A DNA stretch of 64,000 bases. Origin: Novosphingobium flavum (GTDB lineage: Bacteria > Pseudomonadota > Alphaproteobacteria > Sphingomonadales > Sphingomonadaceae). Both the position numbers and the translations under genes were made by a program. The DNA lies in assembly GCF_014230315.1 (NCBI RefSeq), contig NZ_JACLAW010000009.1:62001-126000 (forward strand), in the 5' to 3' direction. The notes under the pieces were generated by a model. It was not told the origin of the DNA. It searched no databases and was given only the letters and a program-made list of their open reading frames with translations. This document shows, piece by piece, positions 42,733 to 49,389 of this stretch. Numbering within the stretch: position 1 is the stretch's first letter; each line of letters starts with the position of its first letter.

Positions 42733-45324
42733 TCAGTGCCTCAGGCGTTCGATCGCCTGGGCCAGCACGACATAGAGCTTGCCCATGTCGGACGAGAGCA
42801 GGGTCACGCCCAGCGCATGGCCGTCGCGGGTCGAGAGCAGCTGGCGCAGCATTGCCTCGAAATCGTGGATATAGCGGCTGACGTAATCGCGAAACTCGCC
42901 GTCTTCCTCGTAGATCCGGGTGATCTCGCGGCCTTCGGAATTGTCGATCAGGCGCACCGCACGCCGGGTGAAGACACCGCGGTCGCCCTTGAGATAGGCG
43001 GCCCAGGCCGTGTCGGTCACCTCGGTCGAGAGAGACTTGGCAATATCGATCGCGTTGGAGTTGAGCGATTCGGTGATCAGCGCGACCCGCCGCGCGAAAT
43101 CATTGTCGACCTGCTCTTCCGCGCGGGCCTTGGCGTGGGCCACCCGGCGTTCGAGGTTCGCGGTCAATTCCGCCACCTTGCCGAGCTGGTCGCGCAGCTG
43201 GATCGCAGCTTCGCGGCTGACCCCTGCGGCATGGCCCGCGGCCTGTTCCAGCTGTCCGATCGCCTCGGCCATGCGCATCCGCATCGCCCGGTCGATCGCC
43301 GCCGCGCTTTCCTCGCCGAGCCGCTCGGCGACCTGGCTCACGGCGCCGGCACTTTCGTCGCGCAGGTTGGCCACGGCACTGCGCGTGGCCTCGCCCAGTT
43401 GCTCGATAGCCGCGGTCAGCGCGTCCTGCGCCTGCCCGGCTGTGGCGAGGCTTTCCTGCTCCAGCGCAGCCAGGCCTTCGCGCAGCGCTCCGAGCTTTTG
43501 CCCGTGCCGGTCCGCGCCTTCGCCGAGATTGCCTTGCAGCGCGCCCAGTTCATCGAGGGCCTTGCCGAGCGCAGCCCGCGTGTCAGCGGTCGTGGCGGCA
43601 AGAACATCGCCCTGCGCCGAAGCCGCGCGGATCGTCTCTGCCATTGCCGCGACACGCTGTTCCCAATCTTCAAGTCCGGCCTGTCCCTGCGCCAGCGCCG
43701 CAGGAAGCTGGTCGCGCGACTGCGCCGTACTGGCCTGGATCAATTCCAGCAGCCGCACGGCGCCGTCGGTCAGGTCCGTAACGGCGGCATGGGTGCCGGC
43801 GAGAGCCTCGCGGCTCGCGCCCAGCCGGTCGGTCAGTACGCCCAACCCGTTGCCGAGCGATTCTTCGGCCTGATGCCCGAAGGCAGCGATCGCCGCGATC
43901 CGGTCCGACATCGCCTCGATCTGCATGGCGATGGCCTCGCCGGAGGCGGCAAGGGCCTGCTGGCGCTGGTTCTGCTCGGCGCGGCGTTCGTCCAGCTCCT
44001 GGTCGATCCGGGCGAACTGCCCCGTCGTATCGGCGAGGCGCTGCTCGGTCTCGGCCAGGAACTGGCGATTGCGTTCAAGCAGGCGTTCGTCGAAGTCGCT
44101 CGCCTCTTGCGACAGCGTTGCAATGCGGTTGCGTGCCGCTTCCAGTGCCTGCCGATCAAGCGCATCGAGCCGCTCGAGCACGCCGCGCACTTCTTCCTCC
44201 AGTCGGTTCTTTGCGGTGTGCAGCGCCTGCAAGGCGCCCTTTTCTCCATCGCGCAGGGCCCGCGCCAGAGCCGAACCTTCGTCGCGCAGTGCCGAAAGCC
44301 GGGCGCGGAGCGAAGTGAGGGATTCAGCCTCGGTCTCGTCAAGGCGCACACGAGTCTGGGCAAATTCTTCGGCCAAGGCCTCAGCCCGGGCCTTGAGCGC
44401 GGCGAGCCCGGCAGCTTCGTCATCGGCAAGGCGGGCGCGTAGTTCGCCCGCACGGTGCTCCAGCTCCTCGAGCCTGCCGGAAACGACAGCCTGCAGTTCA
44501 CCGAGCCGAGCGTGGAAAAGGCCAAGCGCCTCGTCGACCTTGCCATGCAGCGTGCCGACCTGGGCTTCGCCGGCCGCCCCGGCGGAAGCGAGCCGGTCAA
44601 ACGCCGCGATCAGCTCACCGAGCACGCCTTGCGCCGTGCGCCCGGCATTGCCGATGTTATTGGTCACGTCCTTGGCTGAGCTGGCGATCACCGGCAATTG
44701 GCCGCGCAGGCGCTCCATATTATCGAGCGCGGTCGTGGAAACGCTGGCGATCGCTTCGACCTGGGCGCCATTGCTGCGGATCAGTTCCTGTAGGCGGGCA
44801 GCATGTTCGGAGATCCGTTCGGCGGAAATACGACCGAGAGCCTCGAGATCACGGGACTGGGCGGCAATGAACTCGCGCGCAAGGCTGAGTTCGCGGTTGA
44901 CCGTGATGAGCCGTGCCTCGAGCCGAGCGCTTTCAGTGGAAAGCACGAATGCCGCCTCTCCGAACCGCCGCGCCTCGCGCCGCGAAGTGCGCAGGGCGAT
45001 GAGCCATGCGACGCCGATCAGCAGCACCGGAACGGCCCAGTTGCCGAGCAGCGAAACCCCTTCGCTGGGCGTGGTCCCGGAGGAAATTCGCGTCCACATT
45101 GCCCAGAAGAAGTATCCGGTCCACCCTGCCACGGCCGCAAGGCCGAGGGCAGGGACGAGCCAGTTGCGCCGCATGGCCTCGGGCTCCGGCTCATCTTCCA
45201 AGATCTTGTCTTCCGGCCAAACCTCTTCGGGCAGCGCATCGGCCGCCTCCAGCGTGAGTTCCCCTGCCGCCAGCGGCTTGTCGCCGCCCGGCCCGAATGC
45301 GACGATGCGCGATCCCCCAGACAT
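42733..45324 (-). CDS. Large two-TM coiled-coil protein with TipN-like architecture
   Basis: 863 residues. A polar acidic N-terminus is followed by two transmembrane helices (about 54-78 and 91-111) and then some 600 residues of Ala/Glu/Arg/Leu-rich heptads with almost no Pro or Gly, a long coiled coil. The last ~130 residues form a more conserved-looking globular part (VALITESLNSNAIDIAKSLS, FTRRAVRLIDNSEGREITRI, LLSSDMGKLYVVLAQAIERL). The Caulobacter polarity factor TipN has the same order and nearly the same length (two N-terminal TM segments plus large coiled coil); homology is not demonstrated. Automated pipelines might call it an apolipoprotein- or ATPase-like protein; no Walker motif is seen. 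Divergent from the Hpt-like gene. Confidence 0.85.
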   Translation of the reverse strand: MSGGSRIVAFGPGGDKPLAAGELTLEAADALPEEVWPEDKILEDEPEPEAMRRNWLVPALGLAAVAGWTGYFFWAMWTRISSGTTPSEGVSLLGNWAVPVLLIGVAWLIALRTSRREARRFGEAAFVLSTESARLEARLITVNRELSLAREFIAAQSRDLEALGRISAERISEHAARLQELIRSNGAQVEAIASVSTTALDNMERLRGQLPVIASSAKDVTNNIGNAGRTAQGVLGELIAAFDRLASAGAAGEAQVGTLHGKVDEALGLFHARLGELQAVVSGRLEELEHRAGELRARLADDEAAGLAALKARAEALAEEFAQTRVRLDETEAESLTSLRARLSALRDEGSALARALRDGEKGALQALHTAKNRLEEEVRGVLERLDALDRQALEAARNRIATLSQEASDFDERLLERNRQFLAETEQRLADTTGQFARIDQELDERRAEQNQRQQALAASGEAIAMQIEAMSDRIAAIAAFGHQAEESLGNGLGVLTDRLGASREALAGTHAAVTDLTDGAVRLLELIQASTAQSRDQLPAALAQGQAGLEDWEQRVAAMAETIRAASAQGDVLAATTADTRAALGKALDELGALQGNLGEGADRHGQKLGALREGLAALEQESLATAGQAQDALTAAIEQLGEATRSAVANLRDESAGAVSQVAERLGEESAAAIDRAMRMRMAEAIGQLEQAAGHAAGVSREAAIQLRDQLGKVAELTANLERRVAHAKARAEEQVDNDFARRVALITESLNSNAIDIAKSLSTEVTDTAWAAYLKGDRGVFTRRAVRLIDNSEGREITRIYEEDGEFRDYVSRYIHDFEAMLRQLLSTRDGHALGVTLLSSDMGKLYVVLAQAIERLRH

Positions 45325-45395: not shown

Positions 45396-45701
45396 ATGGC
45401 TTACGAAGCTGGCGCCCTTGATGAGACCTTGGCAGCGGCGGCGGGCGACGACCCGGCGCTTCTTGCCGAGCTTCGCTGCGCCTTTGCCGAAAGCCTGCAG
45501 CGTCAGATCGACCTGCTGGGGCGCGCCCGCTGCGATGGCAACTGGCAGATCGCCGCACAGCGCCTGAAAGGGCTGGCGGCGAGCTTTCACGAAGTCTCGC
45601 TGATCGCCCTCGCCGAAGAAGCCCTGGTTGCGGCTCCGGGCGAGCCCGGCGTGGTCCGGCGGCTGCAACTTTTCCACGACGCGCTCGTCTCTGGCGCCTG
45701 A
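45396..45701 (+). CDS. Hpt-like protein lacking the phospho-accepting histidine
   Basis: 101 residues, all helical. The segment IAAQRLKGLAASFHEVSLIA aligns with the Hpt signature aHxLKGaaaxlG, but the histidine is replaced by Gln55 (Q55-R-L-K-G59). Such a domain could bind a receiver domain without passing phosphate. It starts 71 bases from the divergent coiled-coil gene, a gap with two TTAAC motifs. The downstream genes run in the same direction to the pseudo-kinase at 47930. Alternatively it is simply a four-helix bundle with chance similarity. Confidence 0.65.
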   Translation: MAYEAGALDETLAAAAGDDPALLAELRCAFAESLQRQIDLLGRARCDGNWQIAAQRLKGLAASFHEVSLIALAEEALVAAPGEPGVVRRLQLFHDALVSGA

Positions 45702-45797
45702 ACCGGACCGCAGCCGCCTATTGGCAGGTCCGGCAGCTGTCCCTAAGACAATGGCACCCTTTTTCGGAGACTAGCCCTGCGGGTCGCGCTTCTGACC

Positions 45798-46991
45798 ATG
45801 ATGGAACCGGCCGCCCCCGGTGATCCTGCACCGCGCGCATTCCTGCGCGTCGGCGGGGCCAGCATCGCGCGCCATCAACTGGCGCTGGTATTGGCCGCAG
45901 GCTGCGAGCGGGTAATCTGCCTGGCGCGCGGGCTGGGACCGGAGTTGATCGAGCTTCAGCACGAGGCAGAGCGCGCGCGAGCCTCGTTTCACGTCATTGC
46001 CGGCGCCCGGGGCCTGTCGGGCCTGATCAGCGCGGCTGACGAAGTACTTGTCGTCGCCGAAGGCCTGCTGCCGACCACAGGCGAGGCGCTGCGGCTGATC
46101 GACGGACCGCCGGCCATACTGGTGCAACCATCGGAAACAGGCATTCCGGCCGGATTCGAGCGGATCGACCTCAACCACGCGGATGCGGGGCTCATTCTCA
46201 TTCCCGGGCGCCTGGTCGATCGGTTGATGGACCTGCCGCCCGATGTCGAACCCGGCTCGGCCTTGCTCAGGATCGCACTTCAGGCCGGCGTGGCCCAGCG
46301 GAGTGTGCCTGAGGACATCCGCTCGGCCGGGCGCTGGCTGCTGGTTCGCTCCGAGGCCGAGGCCCATGCCGCCGAGGATGGCTGGATGGAACGGCACACC
46401 GCCGCTGCCGCCCGCAGCCCGGGGCCGTGGCTGGTGCGGCTGCTGGTTCGCAAGTTCGGCCCGGCCTTGCTCCACGGCCAGGGCTCGATCCTGATCATTG
46501 CCGGCATCGCGGTCACGCTCGTGGCCATGGGAATCGCCGTCACCTGGTTCGGGCTTGGCGCGACCGGGCTGGTCCTGGCCGGGCTTGGTTGGCTCATGGG
46601 GCGAAGCTGGGCCATGCTCGGCCAACTCCGGCGCGAGGCCCTGGCCCAAAGCGGTGGACCGGCGTGGCACGGCCCCGCGGCCGATTTTGCCTTCGATGCC
46701 GGGATCGTGGCCATGTTGACCATGTTGCTCCCGCAATTCCCCGGCCAGCCCCTGCTTGAACGTGCTTTCGCGCCGGTCATGCTCGTGGGTCTGGTGAGGA
46801 TACTGTCGCGGGGGTTCTCGCAGAACTGGTCAGCCTGGGCCGATGACCGACTGGTGCTGCTGGTCGTCCTGGCCTGCCTGTTCCTTGGCCAGGTCGGCTG
46901 GCCGGGCGTGCCAGCGCTCGCAGCACTGATTTTGCTCGCCGCGCTCATACTTCCGCGCGGCACCGATCAGCCTGGGCTAACACGAGCTTAA
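45798..46991 (+). CDS. Membrane protein with nucleotidyltransferase-like N-terminus
   Basis: 397 residues from ATG 45798. The N-terminal half (AFLRVGGASIARHQLALVLA, CERVICLARG, ADEVLVVAEGLLP) resembles a degraded nucleotidyltransferase of the MobA/IPCT type: a VGG turn, alternating beta-alpha, but no intact GxGxR loop. The C-terminal half has four or more hydrophobic helices (ILIIAGIAVTLVAMGIAVTW onward). No annotated family is recognised. An in-frame CTG at 45777 with GGAG seven bases upstream would add MRVALLT, which looks like the missing first strand; no other start exists between the upstream stop at 45744 and 45798. Confidence 0.75.
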   Translation: MMEPAAPGDPAPRAFLRVGGASIARHQLALVLAAGCERVICLARGLGPELIELQHEAERARASFHVIAGARGLSGLISAADEVLVVAEGLLPTTGEALRLIDGPPAILVQPSETGIPAGFERIDLNHADAGLILIPGRLVDRLMDLPPDVEPGSALLRIALQAGVAQRSVPEDIRSAGRWLLVRSEAEAHAAEDGWMERHTAAAARSPGPWLVRLLVRKFGPALLHGQGSILIIAGIAVTLVAMGIAVTWFGLGATGLVLAGLGWLMGRSWAMLGQLRREALAQSGGPAWHGPAADFAFDAGIVAMLTMLLPQFPGQPLLERAFAPVMLVGLVRILSRGFSQNWSAWADDRLVLLVVLACLFLGQVGWPGVPALAALILLAALILPRGTDQPGLTRA

Positions 46992-47003
46992 CCACGCACG
47001 TTT

Positions 47004-47933
47004 ATGACAGGGGCCATGAACCTCGAAGGTCGAGATACACCGGTCGTTCCTGCGGCCGAACTGACCGTTCGTGCCGATCTGGCTCGGGCGGGCGGAGTAC
47101 TGGCAGCCATTCCGCCGGTTCTGGCCCATCTCGTCGCCAACCAGACCCACGCCGTCTTCAGCGAGGAAATCGTGGCCCGCACGCGCGGACAGGTCGAGTC
47201 GCTGGCCAGGGCGCTGGTCCGCACCGCCGATGACCTCGCCACGGCGGCCGAGGGCAGGGTGCTCGCCGGGGCTCTGGTCGAGCAACCCGCCCTGCTCGCC
47301 CATTGCCATGTGCTCGCCATCGAAGCGCAGTTGGCCGAACGGCTCGCGCGCGATGGCGGGATCGATCCCGTGCTGTCGCCGCTCCTTCAGGAGCAGATCG
47401 CCGATCCAGACCCGGAGGCGGCCGGCACAGCCATGAAACTGCTCGCCGCCCAGGCCCGCTTCACCCAGTGCCAGCGGCGAATGGAGTTGCCCGTCGGTGA
47501 ATTGGCGGCCGACCTGCTGCCTGACGTCCTGCTTGCGTTCAGCCTCGTCGGCGGTCCGACCGCCGATCACGCCGCGCATTGCCTGCGCGATCAATTCGAT
47601 GAGGGACAGTCTCGCACCGCCTTGCTGGCTCGGGTCGTGCTGGGGCTGGACGAAGGCTTTGGCCCGGCGCTTGATCTCGACCAGGCCGGGCTCGCCCTGT
47701 TCCTGACCGCCGTGGCGCTGGCCACCGGCCATGAGCGCGCTGCCGTGGTCCTGGCGACGAGCCAGGGGCAGCAATCGCGCCTCGCCCTGATCCTGCGCCT
47801 GGCCGGCCTGTCGTCTGCCGCGATCGAGACCGTGTTGATCCGCCTTCACCCCAGCGCCCCCCTGCCACGCGCTGCCATGAGCCTCGAACGCGACGCGGCC
47901 ATTGCCCTGCTGGCCGAGGGAGCGCGGCGATGA
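47004..47933 (+). CDS. Helical protein, possibly DUF2336-type
   Basis: 309 residues, predominantly short helices rich in Ala and Leu (LAGALVEQPALLAHCHVLAI, FTQCQRRMELPVGELAADLL), suggesting a HEAT-like or DUF2336-type repeat fold. DUF2336 proteins are common, poorly understood alphaproteobacterial proteins. The ATGA overlap with the following sensor kinase-like gene shows coupled translation and suggests the two proteins work together. An in-frame ATG at 47016 is a possible alternative start. I assign no biochemical function. Confidence 0.65.
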   Translation: MTGAMNLEGRDTPVVPAAELTVRADLARAGGVLAAIPPVLAHLVANQTHAVFSEEIVARTRGQVESLARALVRTADDLATAAEGRVLAGALVEQPALLAHCHVLAIEAQLAERLARDGGIDPVLSPLLQEQIADPDPEAAGTAMKLLAAQARFTQCQRRMELPVGELAADLLPDVLLAFSLVGGPTADHAAHCLRDQFDEGQSRTALLARVVLGLDEGFGPALDLDQAGLALFLTAVALATGHERAAVVLATSQGQQSRLALILRLAGLSSAAIETVLIRLHPSAPLPRAAMSLERDAAIALLAEGARR

Positions 47934-49333
47934 CTGGCACCGTTTCGCAGCCGGGTGCATCGGCGCGCACCGACGGCAACGATCGCCTGATCGCGGCAGA
48001 CGAACCGCTGCTCGGCCTCCATCTGCAGTGCGGCGGCGAAATGCCCGGCACGCTGGCCATTCCCGCCCTGTTCGAAGCGGTGCGCAAAGCCCGGGCGCTC
48101 GGGCTCAAGCTGGCGCGTCCGATCATTGCTCACGGTGCTGCCGAAACCATCACAGCATGGGTCGAGATCGAACCGCTTGGCGAGACTGCCGATGGCGGTG
48201 CCGGCGCGCTCATTTCCCTGCGCGGCTGGCAGACCCGCCCCCTGCCGGCCGAGGACGAGCAGGCCGCAAGCCGGCGCCGAATCGCGGTCGAACGCGAAAT
48301 CGCAGAGTTTTCCGCCCGGCTTGATGCCGCCCAGCAGGTCCTGTTCGCCGAGGCCCTGCCCGGCGAACTGACCGCCCTGAGCGAGGCCATGGCGGTTGGC
48401 GTCGGGCGCCCGTGGACCGATTTTCTGACGATCGAAGGCAGCAGCCACCGCCAGCCGCTTCACTGGCGCCTGCTCGACGGGGCGCCGGTGCGTGTGCCCG
48501 GGTCCGATCGGCCCTGGCGCGCCACTTTGGTGCCGCAGTTTCGCGGCGGGATCGAGCCGGCCGGGTTCGAACTCTATCTCGCCTCCGATGTGCCGTTCGA
48601 GCCCGCTTCACCGGCCGCCGATACCGCCCCCGCCACAGGGATGAAAGCCCGGGTCATCGGCCGCGAAGTAGCTCCGGTCCTGCGCCAGCCGATCGCCCGG
48701 ATCATCGCCAATGCCGAAACGATACGGGCACGACTGGCCGGTCCCCTCGACGACGAATACAGCGCTTACGCCTCCGACATTGCTGCGGCCGGCCAGCACC
48801 TGCTTGCCTTGATCGACGATCTGACCGACCTCGAAGTTGTCGAGGCAGAGGATTTCTCGACCGCGCCTGATCGCATCGACCTTGCCGAAGTCGCCCGCCA
48901 GGCGGCGGGCATACTCGGGGTCAAGGCGCGCGAAGCGGAAATCTCGATCGATCCTCCGCGAATGGGTGAGAGCCTGATGGCCGTGGCTGAATTCCGCCGG
49001 GTCCTGCAGGTCCTGCTCAATCTCGTGGGCAATGCCCTGCGCTATGCCCCGGGCCAGTCGCAGGTCTGGATTCGCCTCGAGCAGGAGGGGCATCTCGCCC
49101 GGGTCATCGTTGCCGACCAAGGGCCGGGGCTCGATCCGGAGCAGCAGCGCAAGGTCTTCGAGAAATTCGAGCGGCTCGGCCGCAGCGGCGATGGCGGCTC
49201 GGGCCTTGGACTGTACATTTCACGCAAGCTCGCCCGGGCGATGGGCGGCGAACTGTCGGTCGAAAGCGCCCCGGGGCAGGGGGCCCGCTTCATCCTCAGC
49301 GTCCCCGCCGTCGGTTCCGGCGCCGCGGCGTAA
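47930..49333 (+). CDS. Sensor histidine kinase-like protein without the H-box histidine
   Basis: 467 residues, no transmembrane helix. A ~230-residue N-terminal region with unclear sensor fold precedes the dimerisation helices. The H-box reads PVLRQPIARI (249-258) where kinases have HELRTPLxxI, so Pro249 replaces the phosphorylated His. The HATPase domain is intact: N-box NLVGNALRYAP (364-374), DQGPGLDPEQQRKVFEKFER and GDGGSGLGLYISRKLA. It may bind ATP and act allosterically or use a partner's His, but should not autophosphorylate at the normal site. Coupled to the helical gene upstream; ends before a strong terminator. Confidence 0.85.
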   Translation: MTGTVSQPGASARTDGNDRLIAADEPLLGLHLQCGGEMPGTLAIPALFEAVRKARALGLKLARPIIAHGAAETITAWVEIEPLGETADGGAGALISLRGWQTRPLPAEDEQAASRRRIAVEREIAEFSARLDAAQQVLFAEALPGELTALSEAMAVGVGRPWTDFLTIEGSSHRQPLHWRLLDGAPVRVPGSDRPWRATLVPQFRGGIEPAGFELYLASDVPFEPASPAADTAPATGMKARVIGREVAPVLRQPIARIIANAETIRARLAGPLDDEYSAYASDIAAAGQHLLALIDDLTDLEVVEAEDFSTAPDRIDLAEVARQAAGILGVKAREAEISIDPPRMGESLMAVAEFRRVLQVLLNLVGNALRYAPGQSQVWIRLEQEGHLARVIVADQGPGLDPEQQRKVFEKFERLGRSGDGGSGLGLYISRKLARAMGGELSVESAPGQGARFILSVPAVGSGAAA

Positions 49334-49363: not shown

Positions 49364-49389
49364 ACGCCGCCCCCGAATGGGGGCGGCGT
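49364..49389. terminator. Terminator between pseudo-kinase gene and gltA
   Basis: An 11-bp perfect stem ACGCCGCCCCC / GGGGGCGGCGT with a GAAT loop. It is followed by CTTCATCC on the plus strand and by TTTTCGTTGAAA on the minus strand, so it works best for gltA. Confidence 0.85.

Follow-up and report, generated by a model that had tools for sequence, protein, structure and literature searches.

Four co-directional genes of Novosphingobium flavum encoding a pseudo-histidine kinase and an Hpt-fold protein that lack their phospho-accepting histidines

Pseudo-histidine kinases and pseudo-Hpt proteins are already known singly, as DivL and AHP6, respectively. DivL is reported to have a kinase fold that acts by binding a receiver, not by catalysis, and to bind ATP weakly (PMC4211667); the Arabidopsis pseudo-HPt AHP6 is a reported precedent for a competing decoy (PMC7402358). 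Here, we analyzed a 64,000-nucleotide stretch of Novosphingobium flavum (contig NZ_JACLAW010000009.1, positions 62,001 to 126,000; the whole stretch is referred to as the window), in which a kinase-like protein and an Hpt-like protein, both without the histidine, are encoded in one group of four genes. The group had been predicted to be a four-gene module in which two independent losses of the same chemistry left a signaling complex that operates without phosphorelay. The cluster probably works by binding, not catalysis, since the chemistry has been lost while conservation of the kinase and the carrier remains strong; their neighbor is often a third enzyme-like protein, likewise without its catalytic motifs.

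The four predicted open reading frames are real, co-directional, and correctly delimited, and genes 3 and 4 overlap by 4 bases (ATGA), so that the start of gene 4 lies inside gene 3. They are as follows.

45396..45701, + strand: gene 1, Hpt-fold protein of 101 amino acids without the phospho-His (Q55 codon, 45558-45560)
45798..46991, + strand: gene 2, IPCT-DIPPS-fold pseudoenzyme with a nucleotidyltransferase domain and a CDP-alcohol phosphotransferase-like membrane domain, catalytic motifs lost
47004..47933, + strand: gene 3, helical and probably a diverged DUF2336 protein, forming a pair with gene 4
47930..49333, + strand: gene 4, pseudo-histidine kinase, DHp domain with Pro249 (48674-48676), N, G1, F, and G2 boxes intact

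Lost motifs in genes 1, 2, and 4

The cluster was compared with 147 genomes of Sphingomonadales, 64 of which belong to Sphingomonadaceae, a bacterial family of soil and water, and with 80 named loci, the best matches among 418 relatives. The latter were found by the pattern DLLxR[AS]RCD[GA], are biased toward close relatives, and include Novosphingobium, Tsuneonella, Parerythrobacter, Pontixanthobacter, Aurantiacibacter, Erythrobacter, Qipengyuania, Croceibacterium, and others. Crown genomes are distinguished from other genomes, the family being Sphingomonadaceae and the order Sphingomonadales, both named from the named loci. Absence was called at cut-offs of E<=1e-50 for gene 4, E<=1e-20 for the receiver, E<=0.001 for the second Hpt, and 0.01 for gene 1. 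The alignments used for structure models, A9 and A10, from which near copies were excluded, drew on 37 and 32 of the 80 named loci, respectively.

The predicted kinase fold of gene 4, with DHp and CA domains, was borne out by Pfam matches to HATPase_c (1.4e-28) and HisKA (4.6e-7). Ordinary kinases carry H-E-L-R-T-P at the H-box; in gene 4 the corresponding residues are P-V-L-R-Q-P, with Pro249 encoded by CCG at 48674-48676, as predicted. The 130 gene 4 orthologues that we collected are derived from 58 sampled crown genomes and 72 named loci (129 are distinct, as one named locus duplicates a sampled genome), and the phospho-accepting histidine is present in none of them. Pro occupies the position in 105, including 72 of the 72 named loci (68 found by pattern and 4 by eye), and the others have R, G, E, Q, S, T, A, V, or D; no Tyr was seen at this position in the 130 proteins. 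In the 58 crown genomes the distribution is P33 R9 G6 E3 Q2 S1 T1 A1 V1 D1. Two further positions with roles in kinases are also altered: Asp or Glu is missing from H+1 in 130 of 130 orthologues, and at H+4 most of them (93 of 130) have Gln and only 3 have Thr. The putative ATP-binding boxes of gene 4 are kept. The G2 box was found in all 58 crown orthologues (the weakest, L245, was also checked), and the key residues of the N, G1, F, and G2 boxes are invariant across the 31 rows of alignment A3, which holds the window and 30 of 31 fetched loci (L035, whose start was mis-set, was omitted from A3 yet is included in the kinase tree). In a search of 32 further family genomes, the gene 4 profile matched 27 (E<=1e-50), namely, 26 crown orthologues and a His-bearing ancestral form in genome G053.

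In gene 1, Q55 is encoded by CAG at 45558-45560 and lies within Q-R-L-K-G, as predicted, and no H-x-x-K-G phospho-His motif was present in any of the 28 aligned gene 1 proteins (alignment A1, consisting of the window and 27 of 31 loci; L035, L042, L057, and L060 had no usable gene 1). Q55 itself is not conserved, and the site varies freely: the 80 named loci have M50 L19 Q8 S1 W1 H1. The chemistry has been lost in both proteins, and Q55 as such has no special meaning. The AlphaFold model of gene 1 (predicted local distance difference test [pLDDT] score, 91.4) resembles a four-helix Hpt fold; Hpt proteins top the match lists, and HptB aligns with a Z score of 11.3 and a root mean square deviation (rmsd) of 2.5 over 98 residues. 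The best Foldseek E value is 0.2, and this Z score is little above those of unrelated helical bundles. For this reason, the assignment also leans on the Pfam matches of relatives and of His-bearing ancestors: Pfam Hpt matches at E<=1 were obtained for 11 of 28 gene 1 family members (best, 1.5e-4), and gene 1 itself had no Pfam Hpt match. The alignments of genes 1 and 3 yielded no useful match in sequence searches of the PDB.

The predicted nucleotidyltransferase-like membrane character of gene 2 was confirmed by its modeled fold (pLDDT, 92.7), which matches IPCT-DIPPS (PDB 4mnd) over its full length (Foldseek, 7.6e-7; Z score, 22.1; rmsd, 4.9; 354 residues). IPCT-DIPPS was also found by gene 2 sequence profiles (8.5e-5 and 1.6e-5); alignment A4 holds the window and 24 of the 30 loci with gene 2 (L033, L037, L042, L044, L052, and L059 were omitted). 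Neither the full CDP-alcohol phosphotransferase signature, which we take to be D-x2-D-G-x2-A-R-x8-G-x3-D-x3-D and which is visible in the 4mnd row of the alignment, nor the presumed nucleotidyltransferase motif A-[AG]-G-x-G-x-R was found in any of 118 gene 2 proteins, and loose pieces of the motifs are present in 2, 3, and 4 of them. Gene 2 therefore appears to encode a third dead enzyme. The two losses originally described are both old and conserved, but there are more than two, since the gene 2 motifs have been lost too.

A local mutation or sequencing error was considered for the missing histidines and is ruled out by the orthologues. The losses go beyond chance, because the phospho-His is missing in only 0.9% of HisKA and 0.9% of Hpt domains, according to a published study (PMC12632262), and the losses seen here are conserved in most sampled family genomes.

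Ancestral loci and timing of the losses

Genera g2 and g6 of the sample are presumably Sphingomonas and Sphingobium relatives and are labeled here, as a guess, Sphingomonas type and Sphingobium type. The suggested DUF2336 character of gene 3 was recovered through Sphingomonas-type orthologues, both of the two scanned being above the cut-off (1e-13 and 1.7e-9), whereas gene 3 has no Pfam hit of its own and DUF2336 was listed for none of the 31 rows of alignment A2 (window and 30 of 31 loci; L060 omitted). Gene 3 is, on the strength of its distant orthologues only, a probable diverged DUF2336 protein. A search with the single gene 3 protein gave matches in 32 of the 147 genomes of the order, and 92 of the 147 had a match to PF10098 (DUF2336), with strong copies in other families and in G053. 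No paper mentioning DUF2336 was found in the literature searched. The gene 4 protein of the window has no PAS domain detectable by Pfam; the Sphingomonas-type orthologue L112 retains one.

When DUF2336 loci were drawn from the whole class, only 4 of the 30 read had kinase-profile matches (L117, L119, L124, and L144), and for this reason the order was used for the comparison. A kinase gene lies directly beside the DUF2336 gene in 10 of 20 loci read from the order, and all 10 kinases have S-H-E-L-[RK]-T-P; no homologues of gene 1 or gene 2 were found in these 20 loci. A tree was constructed from 88 kinases, comprising 58 gene 4 proteins, the 10 DUF2336-linked kinases, and 20 others from the genome of the window (20 of 24 matches were taken). 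The gene 4 proteins form one clade (100/100) on a long stem (1.79), which groups with the DUF2336-linked kinases (97/99), apart from the 20 other kinases of the same genome.

A kinase located beside gene 1 in genus g6 (L095 and L099) was examined as a His-bearing orthologue of gene 4 and rejected, because it has a counterpart at C20:271166-272884 of the genome of the window (37% identity over most of its length) and because the true gene 4 is elsewhere in genus g6. This mirror-image kinase (G000:C20:271166-272884; L095:2687-4330; L099:2696-4333) keeps the HisKA His (HELRSPL or HELRTPL), has no HATPase domain according to Pfam, and has a helical-looking N-terminal part; in genus g6 it is located close to gene 1, and in the genome of the window it lies at another site.

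The ancestry of gene 1 was traced through its other neighbor, which is as follows.

42733..45324, − strand: divergent neighbor of gene 1, membrane-anchored coiled-coil protein of 863 amino acids (membrane part and coiled coil read from the sequence)

This protein matches no Pfam family above the cut-off. Its gene adjoins gene 1 or the His-bearing ancestor of gene 1 in Sphingomonadaceae and in families f2 and f4 to f7 of the sample, and the linkage was unseen in families f3 and f8. An Hpt-profile search of 40 genomes (37 from outside the family and G053, G083, and G105) matched 25. The match lies beside the coiled-coil gene in 19 loci (families f2 and f4 to f7 and G053), all with the His (18 identified by pattern and L198, with H-K-F-K-G, by eye); tests of eight f8 genomes and one f3 genome gave no such locus. 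A receiver gene is located beside the first Hpt gene in 17 of the 19 loci, always with Asn just before a conserved Trp, at what we take, from the CheY-type motif, to be the usual position of the phospho-Asp. The same 17 loci have a gene for a second Hpt; two of these proteins were scanned and match Pfam Hpt at 1.1e-5 and 8e-6, and the His is invariant in the 8 aligned. These loci (L187 to L193, L195 to L197, and L199 to L205) thus have an Asn pseudo-receiver between two Hpt genes in a relay that is otherwise intact.

Comparison of these predicted genes shows, outside the crown, a DUF2336-PAS kinase pair with its His and a separate cluster of coiled-coil protein, Hpt (His), receiver (Asn), and Hpt (His). 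Both losses noted in the original prediction are real, but the ancestors of genes 1 and 4 stood at two different loci, and both had the His. Orthologues with His, which had been proposed as a sign of a local mutation, were found only outside the crown and at one named gene 1 locus, and they point to ancestry and not to a local mutation.

The kinase and the Hpt of G053 both retain the His, and G053 is the only 1 of 42 Sphingomonadaceae genomes searched that has the receiver (E<=1e-20) and the second Hpt (E<=0.001); the remaining 41 gave neither. A tree of RNase J places G053 outside the other 23 family genomes sampled (99/98), and G105 and G121, with neither gene 1 nor gene 4 detected, branch next. 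The simplest reading of these distributions would be a single loss of the kinase His after the split of G053 and before the common ancestor of the genomes with gene 4. Within this stretch of the tree the Hpt also lost its His, and the receiver and the second Hpt disappeared.

Gene order and selection

A layout of RNase J, DUF1467, the coiled-coil gene (− strand), genes 1 to 4, gltA (− strand), and gltX (− strand) recurs in the 31 fetched loci, with gaps in some (gene 1 was not found in 4). Among the 72 named loci with gene 4, genes 1-2-3-4 are in this order on one strand in 71, the remaining one having no detected gene 2; the contigs of the 8 named loci (of 80) without gene 4 stop inside the cluster or directly behind it. 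Median gaps between predicted starts and preceding genes are 3 nucleotides for genes 3/4 (n = 72), 24 for genes 2/3 (n = 73), and 78 for genes 1/2 (n = 79). A promoter scan found none. Downstream is the following element.

49364..49389, no strand: GC-rich inverted repeat that separates gene 4 from the convergent gltA, a likely shared terminator (read from the sequence; not listed by the scan)

Among the 64 family genomes, 47 have genes 1 and 4, 11 have gene 4 only, 2 have gene 1 only (G053 and G131), and 4 have neither. Here, G083 is counted among the 47 even though its gene 1 is truncated, G105 is counted as absent because a weak gene 1 match was not upheld, and the gene 1 of G053 is the ancestral form, accompanied by an ancestral kinase. 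In G131 (L096), gltA directly follows genes 1 and 2, and genes 3 and 4 have apparently been deleted. Many crown members have the arrangement gene 1-gene 2-gene 3-gene 4, and the two outer genes are clustered in 36 of the 47 genomes with both (36 of the 63 sampled crown members). The tight unit is genes 2-3-4, and gene 1 is an older companion of the coiled-coil gene. The idea of a four-gene module is consistent with the conserved order, but the four genes are not one obligate unit, as gene 1 can be separate or undetected.

For genes 1 to 4, the median ratios of nonsynonymous to synonymous substitution rates (dN/dS) were 0.036, 0.15, 0.145, and 0.067, respectively, in four species pairs only. 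Selection on all four genes looks strongly purifying, and the genes are maintained. Since the losses are old and conserved, the order is kept, and selection is purifying, a role without phosphotransfer is the natural reading. The overall interpretation in the original prediction was right in spirit, but both the four-gene module and Q55 need qualifying.

Possible mechanism, alternatives, and known systems

An ATP-binding, DivL-like pseudokinase switch combined with a membrane pseudoenzyme and an Hpt-fold adaptor is a model to which we give an even chance. The product of gene 4 would be a dimeric pseudokinase that still binds ATP without making phospho-His, and switching could occur by ATP- or ligand-driven movement of the CA and DHp domains; a conformational switch is suggested because the ATP site is kept while the acceptor and the adjacent acid are lost and H+4 is mostly replaced. 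Gene 3 would encode the presumed binding partner of gene 4, inherited from the ancestral pair. The gene 2 protein could anchor the complex at the membrane, its dead site possibly sensing a nucleotide or a nucleotide-linked ligand, and the gene 1 protein, as an adaptor or decoy, could cover a surface of a receiver or kinase and pass on no phosphate. According to a published study, Sphingomonadales keep CckA-ChpT-CtrA, and DivJ-PleC-DivK is degenerate or lost (PMC2877005); input to the CckA-ChpT-CtrA relay is thus a possible output. More tentatively, and with less than even confidence, a whole phosphorelay may have been turned into a non-phosphorylating pseudoenzyme complex in one stretch of the tree, with loss of the kinase and Hpt histidines, the receiver, and the second Hpt and recruitment of a dead gene 2-type membrane sensor, leaving ATP binding alone to drive it.

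Several observations weigh against the model of a shared, non-catalytic complex. Gene 1 is far from gene 4 or on a different contig in 11 of the 47 genomes with both, is undetected in 11 of the 58 with gene 4, and occurs without a detected gene 4 in the crown genome G131. Neither gene was detected in crown genomes G105, G121, G133, and G135, and a complex would therefore be dispensable on an evolutionary time scale. One of the 80 named loci, L290 (6501-6800) of Pontixanthobacter rizhaonensis, has the sole His at the gene 1 site. In the kinase tree, several of the comparison kinases sit on long branches, and the DUF2336-linked kinases do not come out as one group. The link of the cluster to CtrA is only a guess. 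Finally, as DivL binds ATP weakly, the kept ATP site of gene 4 might be a sign of a remaining catalytic role.

Phosphate chemistry by another route, with gene 4 acting as an ATPase or as a phosphatase on a receiver or with another acceptor (such as His65 of gene 1 or His290 of gene 4), would agree with the invariant ATP-binding residues of gene 4 and with the retention of His65 in at least 90% of close gene 1 relatives and of His290 in at least 90% of gene 4 proteins; in addition, DivL Y550H is reported to have gained phosphate with DivK~P and ATP (PMC4211667). However, His65 is mostly Gly in more distant gene 1 orthologues, His290 lies within a segment common to His-bearing relatives, and the H+1 acid is gone from every gene 4 orthologue, with H+4 mostly Gln, which makes this route improbable. 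Genes 1 and 4 could also be functionally unrelated pseudoproteins of the same neighborhood, with genes 2-3-4 as one unit and gene 1 belonging with the coiled-coil gene. The ancestral loci are separate, gene 1 stays beside the coiled-coil gene where genes 2-3-4 are located elsewhere, and gene 4 is found without a detected gene 1 in the 11 genomes mentioned above. We nevertheless regard this explanation as unlikely, if less so than residual chemistry, given that both His losses and the disappearance of the receiver and the second Hpt fall in the same stretch of the tree, that 4 of the 5 crown genomes without detected gene 4 are also without gene 1, and that the two genes are clustered in most genomes with both. 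The loss of the histidines, the receiver, and the second Hpt, the absence of detectable genes 1 and 4 from some lineages, and the truncation of gene 1 in G083 are what functionless, decaying remnants of a lost relay would leave, but decay is contradicted by the purifying selection (dN/dS, 0.04 to 0.15 in the four pairs), the G2 box in 58 of 58 genomes, and the gene order in 71 of 72 named loci and is highly improbable.

The preferred reading, a complex that acts by binding, gains interest from the fact that His-bearing ancestors, the stretch of the tree in which the loss occurred, and conserved survivors can be read here side by side. This makes testable the question of what a relay protein is kept for after phosphotransfer has been lost.

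Among known systems, DivL of Caulobacter (PDB 4q20) is like gene 4 in having a kinase fold without the phospho-His, and it is a sequence relative (8.5e-23), tenth in the list after ordinary kinases. However, DivL has Tyr at the H-box, where gene 4 has Pro, Arg, Gly, or other residues, and its ATP binding is weak, whereas gene 4 keeps the ATP boxes and is paired with a probable DUF2336 protein. The same genome encodes a separate kinase, L158 (G000:C11:283500-285600), whose H-box His is replaced by Tyr (NMSYEFRTPL) and in which the pattern detected no G2 box; it is possibly the DivL counterpart. In the kinase tree, which holds no proven DivL, gene 4 groups with the DUF2336-linked kinases and not with L158, and it is unlikely to be the DivL of this genome. 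The DUF2336-linked PAS histidine kinases of other Sphingomonadales families are, by gene order and tree, ancestors or sisters of genes 3 and 4; they keep S-H-E-L-[RK]-T-P, whereas gene 4 has lost the His and the acid. IPCT-DIPPS of Archaeoglobus fulgidus (4mnd) shares the two-domain fold of gene 2 but differs in that gene 2 lacks the phosphotransferase signature (118 of 118) and the nucleotidyltransferase motif. AHP6 is like gene 1 in its Hpt fold and replaced His, with homology claimed no further than the fold; its site is Asn, whereas that of gene 1 is variable.

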